Assembly (NCBI RefSeq): GCF_900109175.1
Contig: NZ_FNZE01000023.1
Coordinates: 1 to 56,031, forward strand
DNA: 56,031 nt
From: Pseudomonas linyingensis
Lineage (GTDB): Bacteria; Pseudomonadota; Gammaproteobacteria; Pseudomonadales; Pseudomonadaceae
Direction of reading: 5' to 3'
Shown: in pieces, positions 47,643 through 56,031 of the stretch
Layout of the letters: every line of letters begins with the position of its first letter
Position numbering within the stretch: the stretch's first letter is position 1
The notes under the pieces: generated by a model
The model's input: only the letters and a program-made list of their open reading frames with translations
Databases searched by the model: none
Told to the model about the DNA's origin: nothing
Program-made: the position numbers and the translations under genes

Positions 47643-49157
47643 ATGCCCGGCACCCCCCATAAGAAAAACAGTCTTGCCATCCTGGTCGCGCTCGCGCTCT
47701 CCGCATGCACAACCATCAGTCCCCAGCAGCTCTCCGAGCAAGCACTGGCCAAACAGGGGAATGCCGACCGGGGCGCAGCGCTCGCCGAAGCCGAGCCGAT
47801 CAGCGGGATGCTGACCATCGAGCAGGCCATCGCCCGCGCGCTGAAATACAACCTCGAGCGCCGCACGCGCCTGATGGAAGAGGCGATGGCCTTCCGCCAG
47901 CTGGAGGTCAGCCACTACGACATGCTGCCCAAGCTGCTGGCCCAGAGCGGCTACAGCTGGCGCGACAACGACAAGATCAGCCAGAGCCGCAACGACGAAA
48001 CCGGCGAACTGTCGCCATCGCAGTTCATTTCCCAAGAACGCACGCACACCCTGAGCAGCCTGGGGGTCAGCTGGAACCTCATCGATCTCGGTGTCGGCTA
48101 CTACAACACCCGGCAGCAGGCCGACCGCGTACTGATCGCCGTCGAGAAGCGCCGCAAGGCCATGCACGTGCTGATGCAGGACGTGCGCACCGCCTTCTGG
48201 CGTGCCGCCAGCGCCCAGAAACTGCGTGTCGAGGTGCAGAACACCCTCGTCCTGGCCGAACAGGCCCTGGCCGACTCGCGCACGGCGGAAACCGAGCGCC
48301 TGCGCAACCCTCTCGATGCCCTGCGCTACCAACGTCAGGTACTGGAAAACCTGCGCCTGCTCGAGGCGATCGACCAGGAACTGTCGACCGCCCAGATCGA
48401 ACTGGCCGCCCTGATCAACGCTCCCATCGGCCAGCGACTGCAGCTCGCCGAGCCGGAGTTCAAGGTCAGCCGCCAGACCCTGGACATCCCGGTCGCACGC
48501 TTGGAAGAAACGGCGATGGCCGCCAACGCCGACATCCGCGAGCAGCACTACAACGCCCGGATTGCGCGGGAGGAAACCCGCAAGACCTTGGTCCGCCTGT
48601 TCCCCAATCTCAGCTTCAACTACAGCATCAACTACGACACCGACAAGTATCTGGTGAACAGCAACTGGAACGAGGCCGGCCTGCAACTGTCCTTCAACCT
48701 GTTCAACCTGTTCACCGGTCCCGGCCAACTGAAGCTGGCCGAGGCCGGTGTCAAGCTGGCCGATCAGCGCCGCGTTGCCGTACAGATGGCAACCCTGGCG
48801 CAAACCCACCTGGCCCGCCAGCACCTCGCCAACGCGCTGAACCAGTTCGAGCGAGCCGATGCCATCTGGAGCACCGACCAGCGCATCAATGGGCACATGC
48901 AGAATCGCCAGAACAGCCACATGCAGAGCAAGCTGGACACCGTCGCCAATCAGACCACCGCCATCCTCAGCCTGCTGCGCCGCTACCAGGCACTGGCCCA
49001 GGTCCAGGCGGCCGAAGCGCGCCTGCAATCGACACTCGGTGTAGAGCCGCAGATCGCCAGTGTGGATGACCTGTCGCTGGCGCAGCTGACCCAGGACATC
49101 ATCCGTAGCCAGCACACCTGGAGTGATTTCGGCCAGCCGACTGTCGACGGAGAGTGA
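47643..49157 (+). CDS. TolC-family outer-membrane efflux lipoprotein
   Basis: This 504-residue protein has a lipobox LSAC (C22). The two TolC-type repeats of coiled coil and beta segments are visible: IEQAIARALKYNLERRTRLMEEAMA, LPKLLAQSGYSWRDN and LSSLGVSWNLIDLGVGYYNTRQQAD in the first half, PNLSFNYSINYDTDK, NEAGLQLSFNLFNLFTGPGQLKLAEAG and LALAQVQAAEARLQSTLG-like blocks in the second. It is the outer-membrane channel of a type I-like export path. It overlaps or abuts the adaptor gene. The start is ATG 47643 with AAGGAC eight bases upstream. Confidence 0.88.
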   Translation: MPGTPHKKNSLAILVALALSACTTISPQQLSEQALAKQGNADRGAALAEAEPISGMLTIEQAIARALKYNLERRTRLMEEAMAFRQLEVSHYDMLPKLLAQSGYSWRDNDKISQSRNDETGELSPSQFISQERTHTLSSLGVSWNLIDLGVGYYNTRQQADRVLIAVEKRRKAMHVLMQDVRTAFWRAASAQKLRVEVQNTLVLAEQALADSRTAETERLRNPLDALRYQRQVLENLRLLEAIDQELSTAQIELAALINAPIGQRLQLAEPEFKVSRQTLDIPVARLEETAMAANADIREQHYNARIAREETRKTLVRLFPNLSFNYSINYDTDKYLVNSNWNEAGLQLSFNLFNLFTGPGQLKLAEAGVKLADQRRVAVQMATLAQTHLARQHLANALNQFERADAIWSTDQRINGHMQNRQNSHMQSKLDTVANQTTAILSLLRRYQALAQVQAAEARLQSTLGVEPQIASVDDLSLAQLTQDIIRSQHTWSDFGQPTVDGE

Positions 49158-49159
49158 CC

Positions 49160-49939
49160 GTGAGCACACGCTCTAACCGTATGCTGTCGCTGCTGCCGCT
49201 TCTGCTGGCACTCTCCAATGCGAGCGCCGGCGAGGATGCTGCCCTCTCGCCGGCGCGGGCGGGCATCGAGCGCCAGGAAATCCGCGCCCAGCTCATGCCC
49301 CGTCAGTTCACCACCATAGCCGCCGAGATAGGCGCCAAAATCAGCCAACTACCGTTGCGCGAAGGCGAGCCCTTCAAGGCCGGGCAGCTGCTGGTGCGCT
49401 TCGACTGTTCAATGCAGCAAGCCATGCTGCAGAAGGCGCGCGCCGAGCTGAACGGCGCAGAACACACCCACAAAGCCAACCGTCGGCTGGCCGAATTGGA
49501 CTCGATTGGCCAGCTCGAACTCAACCTGTCGCAATCTGCCGTGGAAAAGGCCGCAGCAGAAGTCGGTGCCCAGCAGGCCGTACTGGCCAAGTGCAGCATC
49601 CCGGCCCCATTCACCGGCCGCATTGCCGAGCAAAAGGTGCGCAACCAGCAATACGTGCAGCCTGGCCAAGCCCTGCTGGAGATCATCGACGACAGCGTGC
49701 TGGAGCTGGAGTTTCTGGCCCCTTCCGCGTGGCTGGGCTGGCTGAAGCCCGGCCTGGGCTTCGAGATCGAAATCGACGAAACCGGCAAGCTCTACCCGGC
49801 CCGCTTCACCCGCCTGGGCGCACGCATCGACCCGGTCAGCCAGTCAGTCAAGGTCGCTGCCGCCATCGACGGCAGCTTTCCGGAGCTGCTCACCGGCATG
49901 AGCGGACGGGTACGCATTCTCCCGCCAAGCCAGCTCTGA
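49160..49939 (+). CDS. Periplasmic adaptor (membrane fusion) protein
   Basis: This 259-residue protein has a signal peptide (MLSLLPLLLALSNASAG) and the MFP/HlyD fold: barrel-sandwich halves ISQLPLREGEPFKAGQLLVRFD and CSIPAPFTGRIAEQKVRNQQYVQPGQALLEIID flanking a coiled coil (QAMLQKARAELNGAEHTHKANRRLAELDSI), then a beta-barrel domain. It is short for an RND adaptor. The preferred start is GTG 49160 with GGAG seven bases upstream; GTG 49154 overlaps the TolC stop as GTGA. It bridges to an inner-membrane pump; the ABC/RND component is not in this window and may lie beyond the giant gene. Confidence 0.82.
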   Translation: MSTRSNRMLSLLPLLLALSNASAGEDAALSPARAGIERQEIRAQLMPRQFTTIAAEIGAKISQLPLREGEPFKAGQLLVRFDCSMQQAMLQKARAELNGAEHTHKANRRLAELDSIGQLELNLSQSAVEKAAAEVGAQQAVLAKCSIPAPFTGRIAEQKVRNQQYVQPGQALLEIIDDSVLELEFLAPSAWLGWLKPGLGFEIEIDETGKLYPARFTRLGARIDPVSQSVKVAAAIDGSFPELLTGMSGRVRILPPSQL

Positions 49940-50033
49940 AACACATTCAAGATCCGCCAGGCCCTCCGCCTGGCATCAGACAGATCTCAGGCAGCCACAG
50001 GCTGTAGTAGCACACACGGAAGAGGACTCAGAC

Positions 50034-53000
50034 ATGGGCGACAACAAGACTCCAATCACCGCCTCCAGCTCGGAACCTTCGGCTCCCACCCCGGGCAATC
50101 GCCTGGTTCGTCGCAGCCCCACGCCGATGGCTCTGGAGCAGCGCTTCGTGTTCGATGGTGCCGCAGCAGCCGATGTGGTCGATACCGCGACCGCCGTTGC
50201 CGAGCCGGCCCCGCAGGCGGCCGAGCCCCTGTCTGAAAACCTGCTATTGGCGGCCTACGGACCTGCGGCAGAACCGCAGTCGATTTCCGTCGAAAGCAAC
50301 GCGCCCGTAGCGGCGACCTCCGAATTGCCGGCAGATGACGGCAACCTGTTCCATCAGGGTGAGGACAACGCGGCCCTGAGCGAGGCTGCAACCACGGCAA
50401 CGCAGCTGATCCAGAACTATCTGGCCGAAGCGAGCGACGAGCAACTGTTCGCCCTGTTCCGCGGCGAGCAAAGCAGTCCCGACGCCCAATGGAGCGCCAA
50501 CCTCGCGCAACTGCGCGATGCCGTTGCCAGCGGCACACTCGACATCAGCCTGACGCTGCTCGACAACGCGCAATTGAACGGTGCGTTGGCTGCCTACACC
50601 CCGGAAGGGCCGCAAGGTGCAGCGACCATTTTCATCAACAGTGACTGGCTGAATGTGCTGGATGTACAGAAGGTATCGAGCCTTCTGATCGAGGAGTACG
50701 GTCACCACATCGACCACGTATTGAACCAAGGGGTGGACACCGCAGGAGACGAAGGCCAACGCTTTGCTGCCGTAGTCACCGGAGCCGACACCAGCGCAGC
50801 GGGTTTTGCGACCGACAATGACCACACCACGCTGCAGATCGAAGGCGAGTCGATCGAGGTCGAGCTGGCGAATCTCAGCTTCAGCAACGCCTACGCTATC
50901 AATGCCGCCACCACTCCGGCCGGCAAGGAGTCGAACAGCCACGACTTCATTGCCACGGGCCTGGGCATCGCCAGCATCAGCGACGACACCAACAGCAACC
51001 TGTTCAGCGGCAACGATGTCGCCGCCATCGGCATCAGCATCGGCGGTGAGGAGTATTTCGGCTGGATCAGCCGGCCAATCAAGAGCAACGGGGTGGTCCG
51101 CGGTTTCTACTTCTGGACCGACACCGATTTTGTCGACCTCGCCACCGCGCAAGCCGACGGCAATGCGGACGGCGACCGCAACGTGGCCGACAACCTCGGC
51201 TTCCTGCTGGTGGTGGACCAGGCCTGGTTCGACAACATCGGTTGGAAAGACCAAGCCGCCAACCTGAAGAACGTCGGCTCGTCCTCCGACCGCGTCGATA
51301 GCGCGCTCAACGCACTGATCCCCGGCCCGGTAGCCCCCGTCGCGGTCGCCGACGTGGCCATCGCCGTCGAGGCCGGAGGCCCGGACAATGCCACCCCGGG
51401 CAGCGATGCCACCGGCAACGTGCTGAACAACGACAGCGATGCCAACGGCGACACCCTGTCGGTCACCGCCGTCACCAGCAACGCCACCGCCAGTTCCAGC
51501 ACCATCGCCAGCGGCAGCAGCGCCGTGGTGAGCGGCCAGTATGGCCAACTGACCCTCGGCGCCAACGGCGCCTACACCTATGTAGTCGATAATGCCAATG
51601 CCGCCGTGCAGGCCCTGCTCAGCAGCGCCAACACCCTGAGCGACACCTTCACCTACCGGATTACGGATGGCAGCGGCGGCAGCGCGACCACCACCCTGAC
51701 CGTGACCATCCAGGGCGCCAACGACAACCCGACGGCCAGCGACGACTACAACGTGGCCAAGGAGTCACTGCTCACGACCGGTGCCTACGGCGTCAGCGAT
51801 CCGCTGGGCAGCCAGGCCACCGGCAATGTGCTGAGCAACGATACGGACCCGGATCGCTACGGAGAGAGCCAGGCGGTCACTGGCGTGGGGATCGAGGGTG
51901 CGGCCACGGGCACGACCACCGCGACCCAGACCATTCTTTCCTTCACCACGCTGCCCAGCAACGTCAGCGTCGGCTACTACGTGTTCCTAGACGGCGACAG
52001 CCTCGACAACGACAAGAACGCAGGCACCGCGCTGCTGGATGCCAACGGTAATCAGATCACCATCGCCTCGATCGACACCACGGCCAAGACCTTCACTCTG
52101 AGCGGCACGGTGGCCAACGTCACCCTGTCGCAGAACGGCAGCCAACTGCTCGGCTTCGCCAACAACAGCGGCGGTAGCGCTGCATACAAGGACGCGTACA
52201 TCCAGTCCAGCACCAATGCGGCCGGCACCCAGATCAGCATCAGTGCCCCACAGGGCACCATCGCCGTCGGCATGAGCGTTGGCGGCACCGGCCTGGGCAC
52301 GGCGCCGACGGTAACCGCGGTCAACTACGATGGCAGCGGCAATGTCAGCTCCGTCACCCTGAGCAGCGCGGTCGCCCTCAGCGACCAGGCGCTGACCTTC
52401 AGCGCCGGGGCCGACGCCGGCGCCACGCTTATCGGCCAGTACGGCACCCTGCTGCTGAATGCCGACGGCAGCTACACCTACACGCCGACAGCCAACAATC
52501 CGGCCCTCGCCGCCGGCCAGTCGGGGCTCGAGCGCTTCGACTACACGATGCACGATGGCGCGGGCGCGACCAGCTCCGCCAGCCTGTTCATCACCGTGCT
52601 GGGTTCGGGCGCCAACGACCCCAATGCCGTGGCCGACAGCATCACCGCCAGCGAGCAGGGCGGCGTGGCCAACGCCACTCCCGGGGTCGATCCCAGCGGC
52701 AACCTGCTCAGCAACGACACGACGCCCAGCGGCAGCAACACCATCGTCGGCGCACGCAGCACCAGCGCCGCCAGCAGCACCACCATCGGTGCCGGCGACT
52801 CGCAGATCGCCGGCCTCTACGGCACCCTGACCCTGCGTGCCGACGGAACCTACAGCTATACCGTCAACAACGACAGTGCCACCGTCCAGGCACTGAACAG
52901 CACGGATAGCCTGACCGACACCTTCGTCTACACCATCGAGAACGGCCTATCGGCCAACGGCACTCCGCTGCGCGACTCGGCCACCCTGACCGTGACCATC

Positions 53001-56000
53001 CAGGGGGCCAACGACACCCCGCTCGCCACCGACGACAGCGCCACCGCCATCGAAGCCGGCGGCACCGGCAACGCCATCGCCGGCTACGATCCCGTCGGCA
53101 ATGTGCTGGGCAACGACAACGACATCGACGACGCAGCCAGCGATCTGCGGGTGACGGCGGTCAGGACCGGCAATATCGAGGGTGCCGGCAGCTCCGGAAC
53201 GATCGGCAGCGCCATCACCGGCAGCTACGGTTCGCTGACCCTCGAGGCCGACGGCAGTTGGAGCTATGTGGTCGACCAGAGCAACAGCGCGGTCAACGCC
53301 CTGGCGCCCGGCCAGACCCTGACCGAAGACTTCAACTACACGGTGACCGACCGCTCCGGCAGCGGCCTGTCAGACACCGCGGTACTGACCATCACCATCC
53401 AGGGGGGCAGCGACACCGTCGCGGTCAACGACGTCTTCGTCAACGAAGGCTCGCCCTACGCGATATTCACCGTGACCGGCGGCGCAGGCGTCCGGATCGA
53501 ACTCGCCCTGGACGACGCAGGACTGCCGGCCACCGACGTCCGCGCCACCCTCGGCACAGATGTCGGCACCCAGATCGAATACTTCGACGGCAGCGTTTGG
53601 GCCGCCTACGACTCCGGCAATCCGCCGAGCATTCCGGGCAGCGGCCAGTTGCTGGTACGGGTCGCCGTGCATCAGGACGACGTTCACGAGGGCAACGAAT
53701 CCTTCCGCCTGATAGCCACCACCAGCGACGGCAGCCAGAGCGCCGGCATCGGCACCATCAACGACGAAGGCGAAGGCGACATTTACCTGGCCGGCAACAC
53801 CAGCGGCACACCGGATAGCACGGCACTGGATGACGACCGTCCGACCCTCAGCGTGTCCAGCCCGACGCTGATGGAGGGCGGCTACGCCCAGTTCACCGTC
53901 GCCATCGACAAGCTCTCGACCAGCGACATCGGCTTCACGCCCAGTCTGAGCGGCGGCAGCGCCACCCTCGGCACCGACACTGCGCCGGCCGGCACCCTGG
54001 AAGTCTCCAGCAACGGCGGCAGCAGCTGGAGCACCGTGACCGGCCCGGTCACCATCGCCGCAGGCCAGAGTTCGGTCCTGCTGCGCATCGCCACCGTCGA
54101 CGACAGCGACATCGAGTCTGCCGAAACCTTCAGCCTGTCCACCGGCTACATCTCCGGCACCGTGACCAATGCCGACGGCGCCTCCGGTACGGCAACCCTC
54201 GGTGACAACGATGCCACCAACACTCCTCCGATGCTGGCCTACACCAGCCTGAGCCTGACCGTGAGCGAGGATGCGGGCGCTCCCGTTGGCGCCGTCGGCT
54301 CCCTGCTCGGCGACTTCACCGGCGGCATCAGCGACGCCGACAGCGGCGCGCTCAAGGGCATCGCCATAACCGCCACCGACTCCAGCAAGGGCACTTGGTA
54401 TTACAGCCTGAATGGCGGCAACACCTGGCAGGCGGTGGACAGCGTCAGCGTCAGCAGCGCCCTGCTGCTGGCCGACAACGGCAGTACTCGGCTGTACTTC
54501 AAGCCGAACGCCAACTTCAATGGCTCCATTGCCTCGGCGCTGACCTTCAAGGCCTGGGACCAGTCCAGCGAAACGGCTGGCACCAAGGTCAACACCGTCC
54601 CCAAAGCCTTCGTGATTCCGGACTCGGGCGCGGTAATGCCCTACCCCTCGACGCTGACGGTTTCCGGAGTGTCAGGCACGCTGACGGACGTCAACCTGAC
54701 GTTGAGCTCACTGACCCATACCTATCCAGCGGACCTCGACATCCTGCTGGTCGGCCCCCAGGGCCAGAAGGTGCTGCTGATGTCCGACGTCGGAGGTAAC
54801 GGCGATGTCAACAATATCAACCTGACCTTTGACGACGAGGCTGCAACCGGCCTTCCTAGCTCCCAGCTCAGCAGCGGCAGCTACAAACCAACGAACAGTG
54901 GCAGCTCCGATACATTCAGCGGGATCGCGGAAACCACTTTCAGCAGCCTGCTTTCCGCCTTCGACGGCACCAGTCCCAACGGCAGCTGGAGCCTCTATGT
55001 CGTCGATGATGCCGGATCCGACTCCGGCACTATCGGCAGCTGGACGCTGACCCTGACGACCGCCAGCGGCAGTACCAACTTCGCAGTCAACCCCGTTGCC
55101 AGCAGCCCCTTCAGTACCGCCACCGACACGCTGAGCGTTACCGTCAGCCCGATCAACGACGCGCCTGTGGCTTCCGGCAGTACGACGCTGCCTTCTGTCT
55201 CCGAAGACACGACCAACCCGCCGGGAGCCACGGTAGCCAGCCTGTTCTCCTCACGTTTCAGCGACACTGCCGATCAGGTCAGTGGCGGCAGCTCGGCCAA
55301 TACCCTAGCCGGCATCGCCGTCACCGCCTACACCGCCGACGCCACCAAGGGCGACTGGCAGTACAGCACCGACAGCGGCGCCAACTGGACCACGCTCTCG
55401 AACATCGCCGGCGACAGCAGCGCGCTCACCCTGCAATCCACCGCCCTACTGCGTTTCCTGCCCGCCACCGACTACAACGGCGCCGCCCCCGACCTGACCG
55501 TGCGGCTGATCGACAGCAGCACCAGCGTGACCGATGGCGCCACCCTGGATGCCAGCAACAACGGCGGCAGCACGGCCATTTCTGCCAGTACCGTGCTTCT
55601 GAGCACCAACGTCACGGCTGTCGACGACGCCAGCGTGCTCGCCGCCGACACCCAGACCGTCGACGAGGACACCCCGGCCACCGGCAACGTCCTGAGCAAC
55701 GACAGCGACGTCGACGACACCCTGCAGGTCGCCAGCTTCGTCGTCGCCGGCGATGCCACCGTCTACACCGCCGGCCAGACCGCCACCCTCGCCGGTGTCG
55801 GCAGCCTGGTGATCGCCGCCGACGGCGACTACACCTTCACTCCGGCCACCAACTGGAACGGCGCGGTGCCGCAGGTGACCTACACCACCGACACCGGCTC
55901 CAGCACCACCCTCGACATCACCGTCGACCCGGTCGACGACGCCAGCGTGCTCGCCGCCGACACCCAGACCGTCGACGAGGACAACGCCGCCAGCGGCAAC

Positions 56001-56031
56001 GTTCTCGGCAACGACAGCGATGTCGACAACA
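50034..56031 (+). CDS. Giant repetitive secreted protein (LEPR-XLL/VCBS/cadherin-like), 5' part
   Basis: A reading frame from ATG 50034 (AGAGGA upstream) stays open to the window end, giving at least 1999 residues. Order: a basic N-terminus with LEQRFVFDGA (34-43), a LEPR-XLL-like mark of giant exported proteins; EEYGHHIDH (220-228) followed by DTAGDEG (235-241), like a degenerate metalloprotease-type domain; VCBS-type modules starting at about 432, 564, 860 and 992 (each with GNVL.ND.D or similar); Calx-beta-like modules (about 1131, 1268); a cadherin-like repeat (about 1395); a P domain (about 1521-1685); further cadherin-like modules; then 104-residue tandem repeats from 1863. The type I secretion signal and calcium-binding end must lie beyond the edge. 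A surface adhesin is likely; the exact role is inference. Confidence 0.88.
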   Translation, partial: MGDNKTPITASSSEPSAPTPGNRLVRRSPTPMALEQRFVFDGAAAADVVDTATAVAEPAPQAAEPLSENLLLAAYGPAAEPQSISVESNAPVAATSELPADDGNLFHQGEDNAALSEAATTATQLIQNYLAEASDEQLFALFRGEQSSPDAQWSANLAQLRDAVASGTLDISLTLLDNAQLNGALAAYTPEGPQGAATIFINSDWLNVLDVQKVSSLLIEEYGHHIDHVLNQGVDTAGDEGQRFAAVVTGADTSAAGFATDNDHTTLQIEGESIEVELANLSFSNAYAINAATTPAGKESNSHDFIATGLGIASISDDTNSNLFSGNDVAAIGISIGGEEYFGWISRPIKSNGVVRGFYFWTDTDFVDLATAQADGNADGDRNVADNLGFLLVVDQAWFDNIGWKDQAANLKNVGSSSDRVDSALNALIPGPVAPVAVADVAIAVEAGGPDNATPGSDATGNVLNNDSDANGDTLSVTAVTSNATASSSTIASGSSAVVSGQYGQLTLGANGAYTYVVDNANAAVQALLSSANTLSDTFTYRITDGSGGSATTTLTVTIQGANDNPTASDDYNVAKESLLTTGAYGVSDPLGSQATGNVLSNDTDPDRYGESQAVTGVGIEGAATGTTTATQTILSFTTLPSNVSVGYYVFLDGDSLDNDKNAGTALLDANGNQITIASIDTTAKTFTLSGTVANVTLSQNGSQLLGFANNSGGSAAYKDAYIQSSTNAAGTQISISAPQGTIAVGMSVGGTGLGTAPTVTAVNYDGSGNVSSVTLSSAVALSDQALTFSAGADAGATLIGQYGTLLLNADGSYTYTPTANNPALAAGQSGLERFDYTMHDGAGATSSASLFITVLGSGANDPNAVADSITASEQGGVANATPGVDPSGNLLSNDTTPSGSNTIVGARSTSAASSTTIGAGDSQIAGLYGTLTLRADGTYSYTVNNDSATVQALNSTDSLTDTFVYTIENGLSANGTPLRDSATLTVTIQGANDTPLATDDSATAIEAGGTGNAIAGYDPVGNVLGNDNDIDDAASDLRVTAVRTGNIEGAGSSGTIGSAITGSYGSLTLEADGSWSYVVDQSNSAVNALAPGQTLTEDFNYTVTDRSGSGLSDTAVLTITIQGGSDTVAVNDVFVNEGSPYAIFTVTGGAGVRIELALDDAGLPATDVRATLGTDVGTQIEYFDGSVWAAYDSGNPPSIPGSGQLLVRVAVHQDDVHEGNESFRLIATTSDGSQSAGIGTINDEGEGDIYLAGNTSGTPDSTALDDDRPTLSVSSPTLMEGGYAQFTVAIDKLSTSDIGFTPSLSGGSATLGTDTAPAGTLEVSSNGGSSWSTVTGPVTIAAGQSSVLLRIATVDDSDIESAETFSLSTGYISGTVTNADGASGTATLGDNDATNTPPMLAYTSLSLTVSEDAGAPVGAVGSLLGDFTGGISDADSGALKGIAITATDSSKGTWYYSLNGGNTWQAVDSVSVSSALLLADNGSTRLYFKPNANFNGSIASALTFKAWDQSSETAGTKVNTVPKAFVIPDSGAVMPYPSTLTVSGVSGTLTDVNLTLSSLTHTYPADLDILLVGPQGQKVLLMSDVGGNGDVNNINLTFDDEAATGLPSSQLSSGSYKPTNSGSSDTFSGIAETTFSSLLSAFDGTSPNGSWSLYVVDDAGSDSGTIGSWTLTLTTASGSTNFAVNPVASSPFSTATDTLSVTVSPINDAPVASGSTTLPSVSEDTTNPPGATVASLFSSRFSDTADQVSGGSSANTLAGIAVTAYTADATKGDWQYSTDSGANWTTLSNIAGDSSALTLQSTALLRFLPATDYNGAAPDLTVRLIDSSTSVTDGATLDASNNGGSTAISASTVLLSTNVTAVDDASVLAADTQTVDEDTPATGNVLSNDSDVDDTLQVASFVVAGDATVYTAGQTATLAGVGSLVIAADGDYTFTPATNWNGAVPQVTYTTDTGSSTTLDITVDPVDDASVLAADTQTVDEDNAASGNVLGNDSDVDN
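54597..55080 (+). other. P domain embedded in the giant protein
   Basis: Residues about 1521-1685 read as a proprotein-convertase-type P domain: STLTVSGVSGTLTDVNLTLS, HTYPADLDILLVGPQGQKVLLMSDVGG, INLTFDDEA, LSAFDGTSPNGSWSLYVVDD and GTIGSWTLTLTTA. It interrupts a cadherin-like unit (YFKPNANFNG on its left, DTLSVTVSPINDAPV on its right). Confidence 0.8.
55620..56031 (+). repeat. Start of a 312-bp tandem repeat array in the giant gene
   Basis: GTCGACGACGCCAGCGTGCT begins a unit at 55620 that recurs at 55932, giving a 312-bp (104-residue) period. The first 50 bases of the two copies are identical and the next 50 nearly so. The second copy runs off the window, so the number of units is unknown. 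High identity suggests recent amplification. Confidence 0.85.

Follow-up and report, generated by a model that had tools for sequence, protein, structure and literature searches.

A putative leader-guided, ABC-independent export system for giant surface-type proteins in Pseudomonas linyingensis and relatives

How might a giant protein be exported when the genes beside it encode a TolC-family channel and a periplasmic adaptor, and no ATP-binding cassette (ABC) transporter lies among them? This question is raised by a stretch of 56,031 bases from Pseudomonas linyingensis (contig NZ_FNZE01000023.1, hereafter the window), the right edge of which is the end of the contig and cuts the giant gene. 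A prediction made earlier from the same DNA (the original prediction) had described a TolC-like lipoprotein, a short membrane-fusion protein (MFP1) and a giant reading frame arranged head to tail without an ABC transporter. The arrangement was borne out by the Pfam and open reading frame (ORF) data, and the ORF list leaves no space for an ABC gene between the three. On the basis of relatives in other genomes, we propose a system of five genes, of which the window contains the first three, for leader-guided, ABC-independent, TolC-dependent export of a giant surface adhesin, a reading to which we assign a probability of about 0.58.

The remaining parts of the locus were found past the contig end. 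In genome G002, which is complete and of the same genus, a giant of 5,777 amino acids (aa) is followed by P0001 (HlyD2, a GAF-type HlyD protein that has an additional part at its N-terminus) and then by the 699-aa protein P0002, a fusion of an N-terminal domain, an M50 intramembrane protease and a HlyD part (the hub, or M50-HlyD protein). Homologues of both are encoded in the window genome (G000) at the right end of contig C23, after the 422 C-terminal residues of a giant (L057). Joining this giant end to that of the window's contig (C12) was rejected, as the compared contig ends have no common 15-mer. The original prediction had looked downstream for the missing parts, among them an ABC/HlyD pair, and for an RTX/type I signal at the C-terminus. 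Parts are indeed encoded there, in the form of the GAF-type HlyD protein and the M50-HlyD fusion, but the ABC/HlyD pair is not: neither the complete G002 locus, which rules out a type I ABC downstream of the giant, nor the C23 end holds a dedicated ABC exporter. The expected signal also failed to appear, the giant ending in a He_PIG domain in both G002 and the C23 piece, with a basic tail containing LSEQLR and no RTX match at E 0.1 (G002) or E 5 (window-genome piece). Thus, the original view of an export locus dedicated to a surface-type giant, one whose start resembles LEPR, holds, whereas its type I version does not, as the C-terminus has no type I signal. Among 56 genomes, the giant N-terminus was matched in 9 and the M50-HlyD protein in 24; close giant N-termini (57-100% identity) and close M50-HlyD proteins (72-100%) occur in the same seven genomes.

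The hub combines features of two kinds of protein. It matches Peptidase_M50 over the cut-off (2.3e-10), its M50 part matches the site-2 protease (S2P) MJ0392 at 1.3e-4, and its HExGH and RxDGY site is invariant in the 15 and the 36 sequences of two alignments; the HExxH motif in a membrane helix and the distal aspartate of an M50/site-2 protease are both present, this aspartate acting as a ligand in S2P enzymes. As a fold search with the whole hub was filled by HlyD matches at 427-681 and was uninformative for the M50 part, the M50 assignment rests on the Pfam, motif and MJ0392 data. The M50 part is nearest to the daptide and epipeptide proteases, matching the daptide model NF041824 at 1.6e-50 with 172.4 bits, below the equivalog cut-off of 300. 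The N-terminal domain of the hub, about its first 90 residues, is predicted to fold like the recognition element (RRE) of ribosomally synthesized and post-translationally modified peptides (RiPPs), a winged-helix fold, and it has a PqqD match; MccB, TigE and LynD are among the RRE-bearing enzymes. No PDB relatives of this RRE-like domain were found by sequence up to E 10.

The cassette recurs well beyond the window. A contig scan with the M50-HlyD alignment gave 234 confirmed relatives among the 588 stretches listed, and the best 80 of the 234 were kept as loci. HlyD2 is present in 75 of these loci, MFP1 in 65 and TolC in 53; M50, HlyD2 and MFP1 occur together in 63 and all four in 48, many loci being cut by contig ends. 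Outside L077-L103, only the machine families are frequent among clustered neighbours, the next being a generic ABC ATPase in five loci. A giant-like ORF or an N-terminal mark (see below) was found in 61 loci and neither in the other 19; in 16 of these the sequence extends for under 9 kb to one side or both, and in three (L108, L136 and L152) for about 10 kb each way. The contig scan placed the cassette in Pseudomonas, Azospirillum, Nitrospira and Pelagibacteraceae, and it was also found on Escherichia coli and Citrobacter plasmids. On an Eleftheria terrae plasmid the gene order is the same as in the window, and annotated plasmids of Azospirillum, Magnetospirillum, E. coli and Kosakonia bear the gene set.

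Several single loci deserve mention. The E. coli plasmid pKL53-L (L161:280-20073) carries a full cassette with a 4,473-aa giant beginning LESRQLFDGA, and the M50-HlyD gene is listed also on Citrobacter, Hafnia and Kosakonia plasmids. Three phage-tail-collar-type genes, the first with a Pfam Collar match at 7.2e-21, stand beside the cassette of a Kosakonia plasmid (L162:18128-20235), and a similar-looking cluster occurs in 19 of the 80 loci, 17 of them within L077-L103. Apparently broken copies were also seen, the M50 gene being split into two ORFs in Symbiopectobacterium (L117:9989-11930) and the giant into three in Azospirillum thermophilum (L157:4413-12597).

The giants themselves are marked at both ends. 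The N-terminal mark LE.R..[FLY]D[GAS] occurs in the first 200 residues of 33 of the 36 distinct giants whose N-terminus could be read, compared with 4 of 969 other ORFs, and the C-terminal mark [LFM]..Q[LVIFM] in the last 60 residues of 30 of 37 distinct giants, against 90 of 978 other ORFs; both marks were derived from the loci in which they were then counted, and the p-values describe enrichment rather than an independent test. The giants were chosen by length and composition thresholds and deduplicated via shared 4-mers, the undeduplicated counts being 45/48 and 36/43. The earliest mark starts at residue 9, in a Pelagibacteraceae giant, and that of the window giant, LEQRFVFDGA, starts at residue 34. 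The LEPR model (NF012209) matches 16 of 22 aligned relatives and DUF4347 (PF14252) all 22; the first 80 residues of the window giant gave no match to NF012209 at E 10. LEPR-type giants are encoded by very large bacterial genes, and we know of no role assigned to the LEPR start. Three Nitrospira giants without the usual C-terminal mark (L120, L134 and L149) end in a hydrophobic segment, perhaps a membrane anchor, with a basic tail that in two of them includes DPLPVL.

Giants with DUF4347 indicate what the N-terminal mark may do. Among 140 genomes of the class, the hub was found in 18, DUF4347 in 16 and both in 12 (p 3.9e-10). An LExR leader precedes DUF4347 in 11 of the 12 hub-positive genomes and in none of the four hub-negative ones (p 0.003); three of the latter (G082, G154 and G187) have a hydrophobic, Sec-like start, and the fourth (G149) is cut by a contig end. 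The N-termini were read at 14 of the 18 DUF4347 places, with those of G021 and G100 taken from earlier loci and the second places of G061 and G186 left out. Sec-like was judged from hydropathy only and not by a signal-peptide program, the maximal value being at most 1.42 in nine LExR N-termini and 1.54 to 2.52 in four uncut N-termini without LExR. By this pattern, the N-terminal mark appears to behave like an export signal.

A candidate motor emerged from distant relatives. On a Pseudosulfitobacter plasmid, a 660-aa SecA-like ATPase is encoded directly behind the hub, and a SecA-like gene follows the M50 gene in the plasmid loci L163, L166, L167 and L168 and in 10 of 24 further genome stretches. 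In the sister clade (clade B), 14 of the 16 loci with room have this gene (L165 and L177 lack it, and three more are cut), and among the ATPases DE[AV]D and GRG[TV]D are conserved in 14/14 and TGEGKT in 11/14. Clade B stands apart from the window's clade with all of its 18 tips (support 0.997) in a midpoint-rooted FastTree tree of 56 tips that included 18 of the 19 loci labelled clade B, the A and B labels having been set beforehand from HlyD2 length and the SecA-like neighbour. The leader form follows the exporter clade: the four clade-A genomes G021, G100, G144 and G146 have [FL]D[GA], and seven of the eight genomes of clade B have LSAD, YSAD or LSGG. For the window's clade, a search of 100 loci gave no SecA-like gene; G000 and G002 have one SecA each, and that this housekeeping SecA might serve as the motor in the window's branch is our guess. 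The SecA-like ORFs (L163:8889-10868, L166, L167, L168, L170, L172, L174, L175, L176, L179, L180, L185, L189 and L191) are 571-726 aa long, and their labels in the PGAP annotation vary among translocase, SecA, prepilin peptidase and hypothetical. A DUF3467 gene lies near the giant in L163, L165, L166 and L168.

The housekeeping SecA and the SecA-like ATPase beside the sister-clade hub would also suit an ordinary Sec route without leader recognition, in which the M50-HlyD protein only trims or releases the giant in the periplasm or regulates the locus; M50 (site-2) proteases are indeed known as regulators. However, residues 1-100 of the window giant contain no Sec-type hydrophobic core, LExR leaders and hydrophobic starts are mutually exclusive before DUF4347 in the 13 uncut N-termini, and the predicted RRE-like fold of the hub argues for recognition of a leader. 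We regard the ordinary Sec route as unlikely.

Type I secretion was weighed in a form in which the local TolC and adaptors borrow a shared LssB- or PrtD-type ABC and the M50-HlyD protein is accessory. The window genome encodes two LssB-type and one PrtD-type ABC over the cut-off on other contigs, TolC and HlyD-type adaptors are common to type I systems, and RTX domains form the end of a LEPR-XLL giant from Vibrio (PMC10868602). The He_PIG end without RTX speaks against such a route, as do three of the ten hub-positive genomes tested (G048, G098 and G136), which have no ABC over the LssB, HlyB and PrtD cut-offs, only part of the candidates having been scored in some genomes; the other seven, the window genome included, have at least one. 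The original prediction had taken the energising component to be either downstream or shared; a shared type I ABC is not required in general, though the window genome has some. Among the 80 loci, no exporter-type ABC recurs in the cassette, and ABC-like ORFs occur in 15, separated from the M50 gene by 1.4 to 9.7 kb. An ABC gene 81 bases behind the M50 gene in G141 was rejected as the exporter, being Uup-like. Taken together, we consider borrowed type I secretion quite improbable.

For leader-guided export, we propose the following course. The giant, which lacks a Sec-like hydrophobic start, would use its LExRxxFDGA leader, located behind a basic stretch, as the signal. The hub encoded after the giant, which unites the RRE/PqqD-like domain, the M50 protease and a periplasmic HlyD arm, would act at the inner membrane; the RRE-like domain may bind the leader of the giant the way RiPP enzymes bind theirs, and the M50 protease, with its motifs intact, probably clips it. 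Together with HlyD2 and MFP1, the hub would then deliver the chain to the TolC channel. In this course no type I ABC serves as the motor; the SecA-like ATPase beside the hub is the candidate in the sister clade, and the window's clade may borrow the housekeeping SecA. That these parts amount to a distinct secretion class, with a RiPP-style leader read by an RRE-M50-HlyD hub, a motor of the SecA family (a short dedicated paralogue in the sister clade, the housekeeping protein in the window's) and exit through TolC without an ABC, is a more tentative suggestion, to which we give somewhat less than even odds. Some observations weigh against leader-guided export. G115 is a misfit, having the hub and yet a hydrophobic start before DUF4347, and L136 is the clearest exception among the loci, with room on both sides and neither a giant-like ORF nor a mark. 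Moreover, because the giants have a C-terminal mark, they may carry a non-RTX, uncleaved C-terminal signal.

The kinship of the hub with daptide and epipeptide proteases in its M50 part, and with RREs in its N-terminal domain, could alternatively mean that it is mainly a RiPP-like maturation enzyme for a small peptide, the giant being a neighbour that is exported otherwise. Yet mark-bearing giants are recurrent neighbours and DUF4347 giants co-occur with the hub (small ORFs were not searched for), and this explanation is very unlikely.

The N-terminal domain of the window giant sits where other giants carry DUF4347, for which no match was found in the window genome or in giant residues 1-430. 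These residues have no Pfam match over the cut-off, no search having been aimed at a LapA-type retention module with its LapG cleavage site. The domain is 58-76% identical to four relatives in alignment A3, which holds five of the seven close giant N-termini. EEYGHHIDH starts at residue 220 and GDEG occupies residues 238-241, and giants of Azospirillum and Eleftheria keep EExGHxxD with GDEG. At the former site, two outside relatives have EETGHAIDA and EEYGHSFDR. The zinc triad proposed from H224, H225 and H228 did not survive, as H225 and H228 are not conserved and H228 varies already inside the family alignment. That the domain is an active zinc metalloprotease releasing or processing the giant is highly improbable: EExGHxxD and GDEG persist even in relatives as distant as those of Eleftheria and Azospirillum, and EExxHHxD occurs with GDEG in G054, but no HExxH zincin motif was found in the domain, a glutamate replacing the required histidine (EExGH) in the copies seen, two of the three histidines vary, and a PDB search by sequence, with the domain not folded, gave no relative (a sole match, E 0.96). 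The G054 region belongs to a repeat-free 597-aa frame (L014, G054:C47; 35% over 105 aa). DUF4347 was also considered as a caspase-like protease and not retained as such, the nearly invariant His133 (SHG) and Cys176 (YGC) of alignment A4, reminiscent of these proteases, being all that was seen.

Within the window, the lipoprotein-like start of the TolC-family protein reads MPGTPHKKNSLAILVALALSAC, and MFP1 has a GTG start that overlaps the TolC stop. The giant frame contains Cadherin_4, Big_9 and P_proprotein matches (Pfam) and VCBS repeats.

Table 1. Features of the cassette genes within the 56,031-base window.
Feature	Position	Strand	Remarks
TolC-family outer-membrane factor, predicted lipoprotein, 504 aa	47643..49157	+	Pfam OEP 7.1e-29; LALSAC lipobox-like start
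MFP1, short periplasmic adaptor of the resistance-nodulation-division (RND) type, 261 aa	49154..49939	+	RND_mfp 1.9e-32, over cut-off; HlyD_3 7.2e-19
Giant cadherin/Ig-repeat protein, first 1,999 aa	50034..56031	+	Frame open at right edge
LEQRFVFDGA leader mark, residues 34-43	50133..50162	+	No hydrophobic core in residues 1-100
Conserved N-terminal domain, about residues 101-430	50334..51323	+	Alignment A3; relatives in L157, L159
EEYGHHIDH, histidines 224, 225, 228	50691..50717	+	Only EE, GH, D kept in outside relatives
Proprotein-convertase P domain, giant residues 1559-1674	54708..55055	+	Pfam P_proprotein 4.3e-11

If leader-guided export is correct, the LEPR start gains a testable role as a leader for export that an RRE domain recognises, RiPP leader recognition would be joined with TolC-coupled export, and a SecA-family motor would be added to the TolC route. 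The cassette is distributed over Pseudomonas, Azospirillum, Nitrospira, Pelagibacteraceae and E. coli and Citrobacter plasmids, and therefore surface or biofilm traits of the bacteria that bear it may depend on this system.

In an open-access library, which has few subscription papers and no bioRxiv preprints, we found no description of this system, and the export machine is apparently undescribed so far. PsmE of Pseudomonas was rejected as the same system, being an RTX protein that comes with type I genes of its own (PMC7716237, PMC10850567). With the LEPR-XLL (NF012209) and DUF4347 (PF14252) giants, the window giant shares an N-terminal LExR mark and the adjoining cassette, whereas its LEQRFVFDGA lies outside the LEPR model and another domain takes the place of DUF4347. 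As in accessory SecA systems, a second, short SecA-like ATPase is encoded beside exporter genes in the sister clade; unlike in those systems, it is coupled to HlyD/TolC genes and the M50 hub, and it is absent in the window's clade. The predicted RRE-like fold, the PqqD match and the M50 part matching the daptide model recall RiPP maturation (RRE/PqqD, and M50 proteases of the daptide MpaP and YydH/LiaK types). In contrast, the hub falls short of the curated cut-offs, with 172 of 300 bits and 39 of 225, and is fused to a HlyD arm, and the apparent substrate here is a giant protein rather than a small peptide. In peptidase-containing ABC transporters with a C39 leader peptidase, leader recognition and peptidase are likewise combined in a TolC-coupled exporter (PMC8277102). 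Here, however, the protease is a membrane-embedded M50 enzyme, the exporter has no nucleotide-binding domain, and the cargo is giant. As in LapA/LapBCE-type type I secretion, a giant repeat adhesin is encoded alongside a TolC-type channel and HlyD-type adaptors, but the present cassette has no ABC, the giant has a He_PIG end without RTX and an N-terminal leader, and an M50-HlyD hub is added. By the features tested, the system is not type I secretion, and the best-supported view is that it functions in the manner of a tripartite exporter that recognises a leader.

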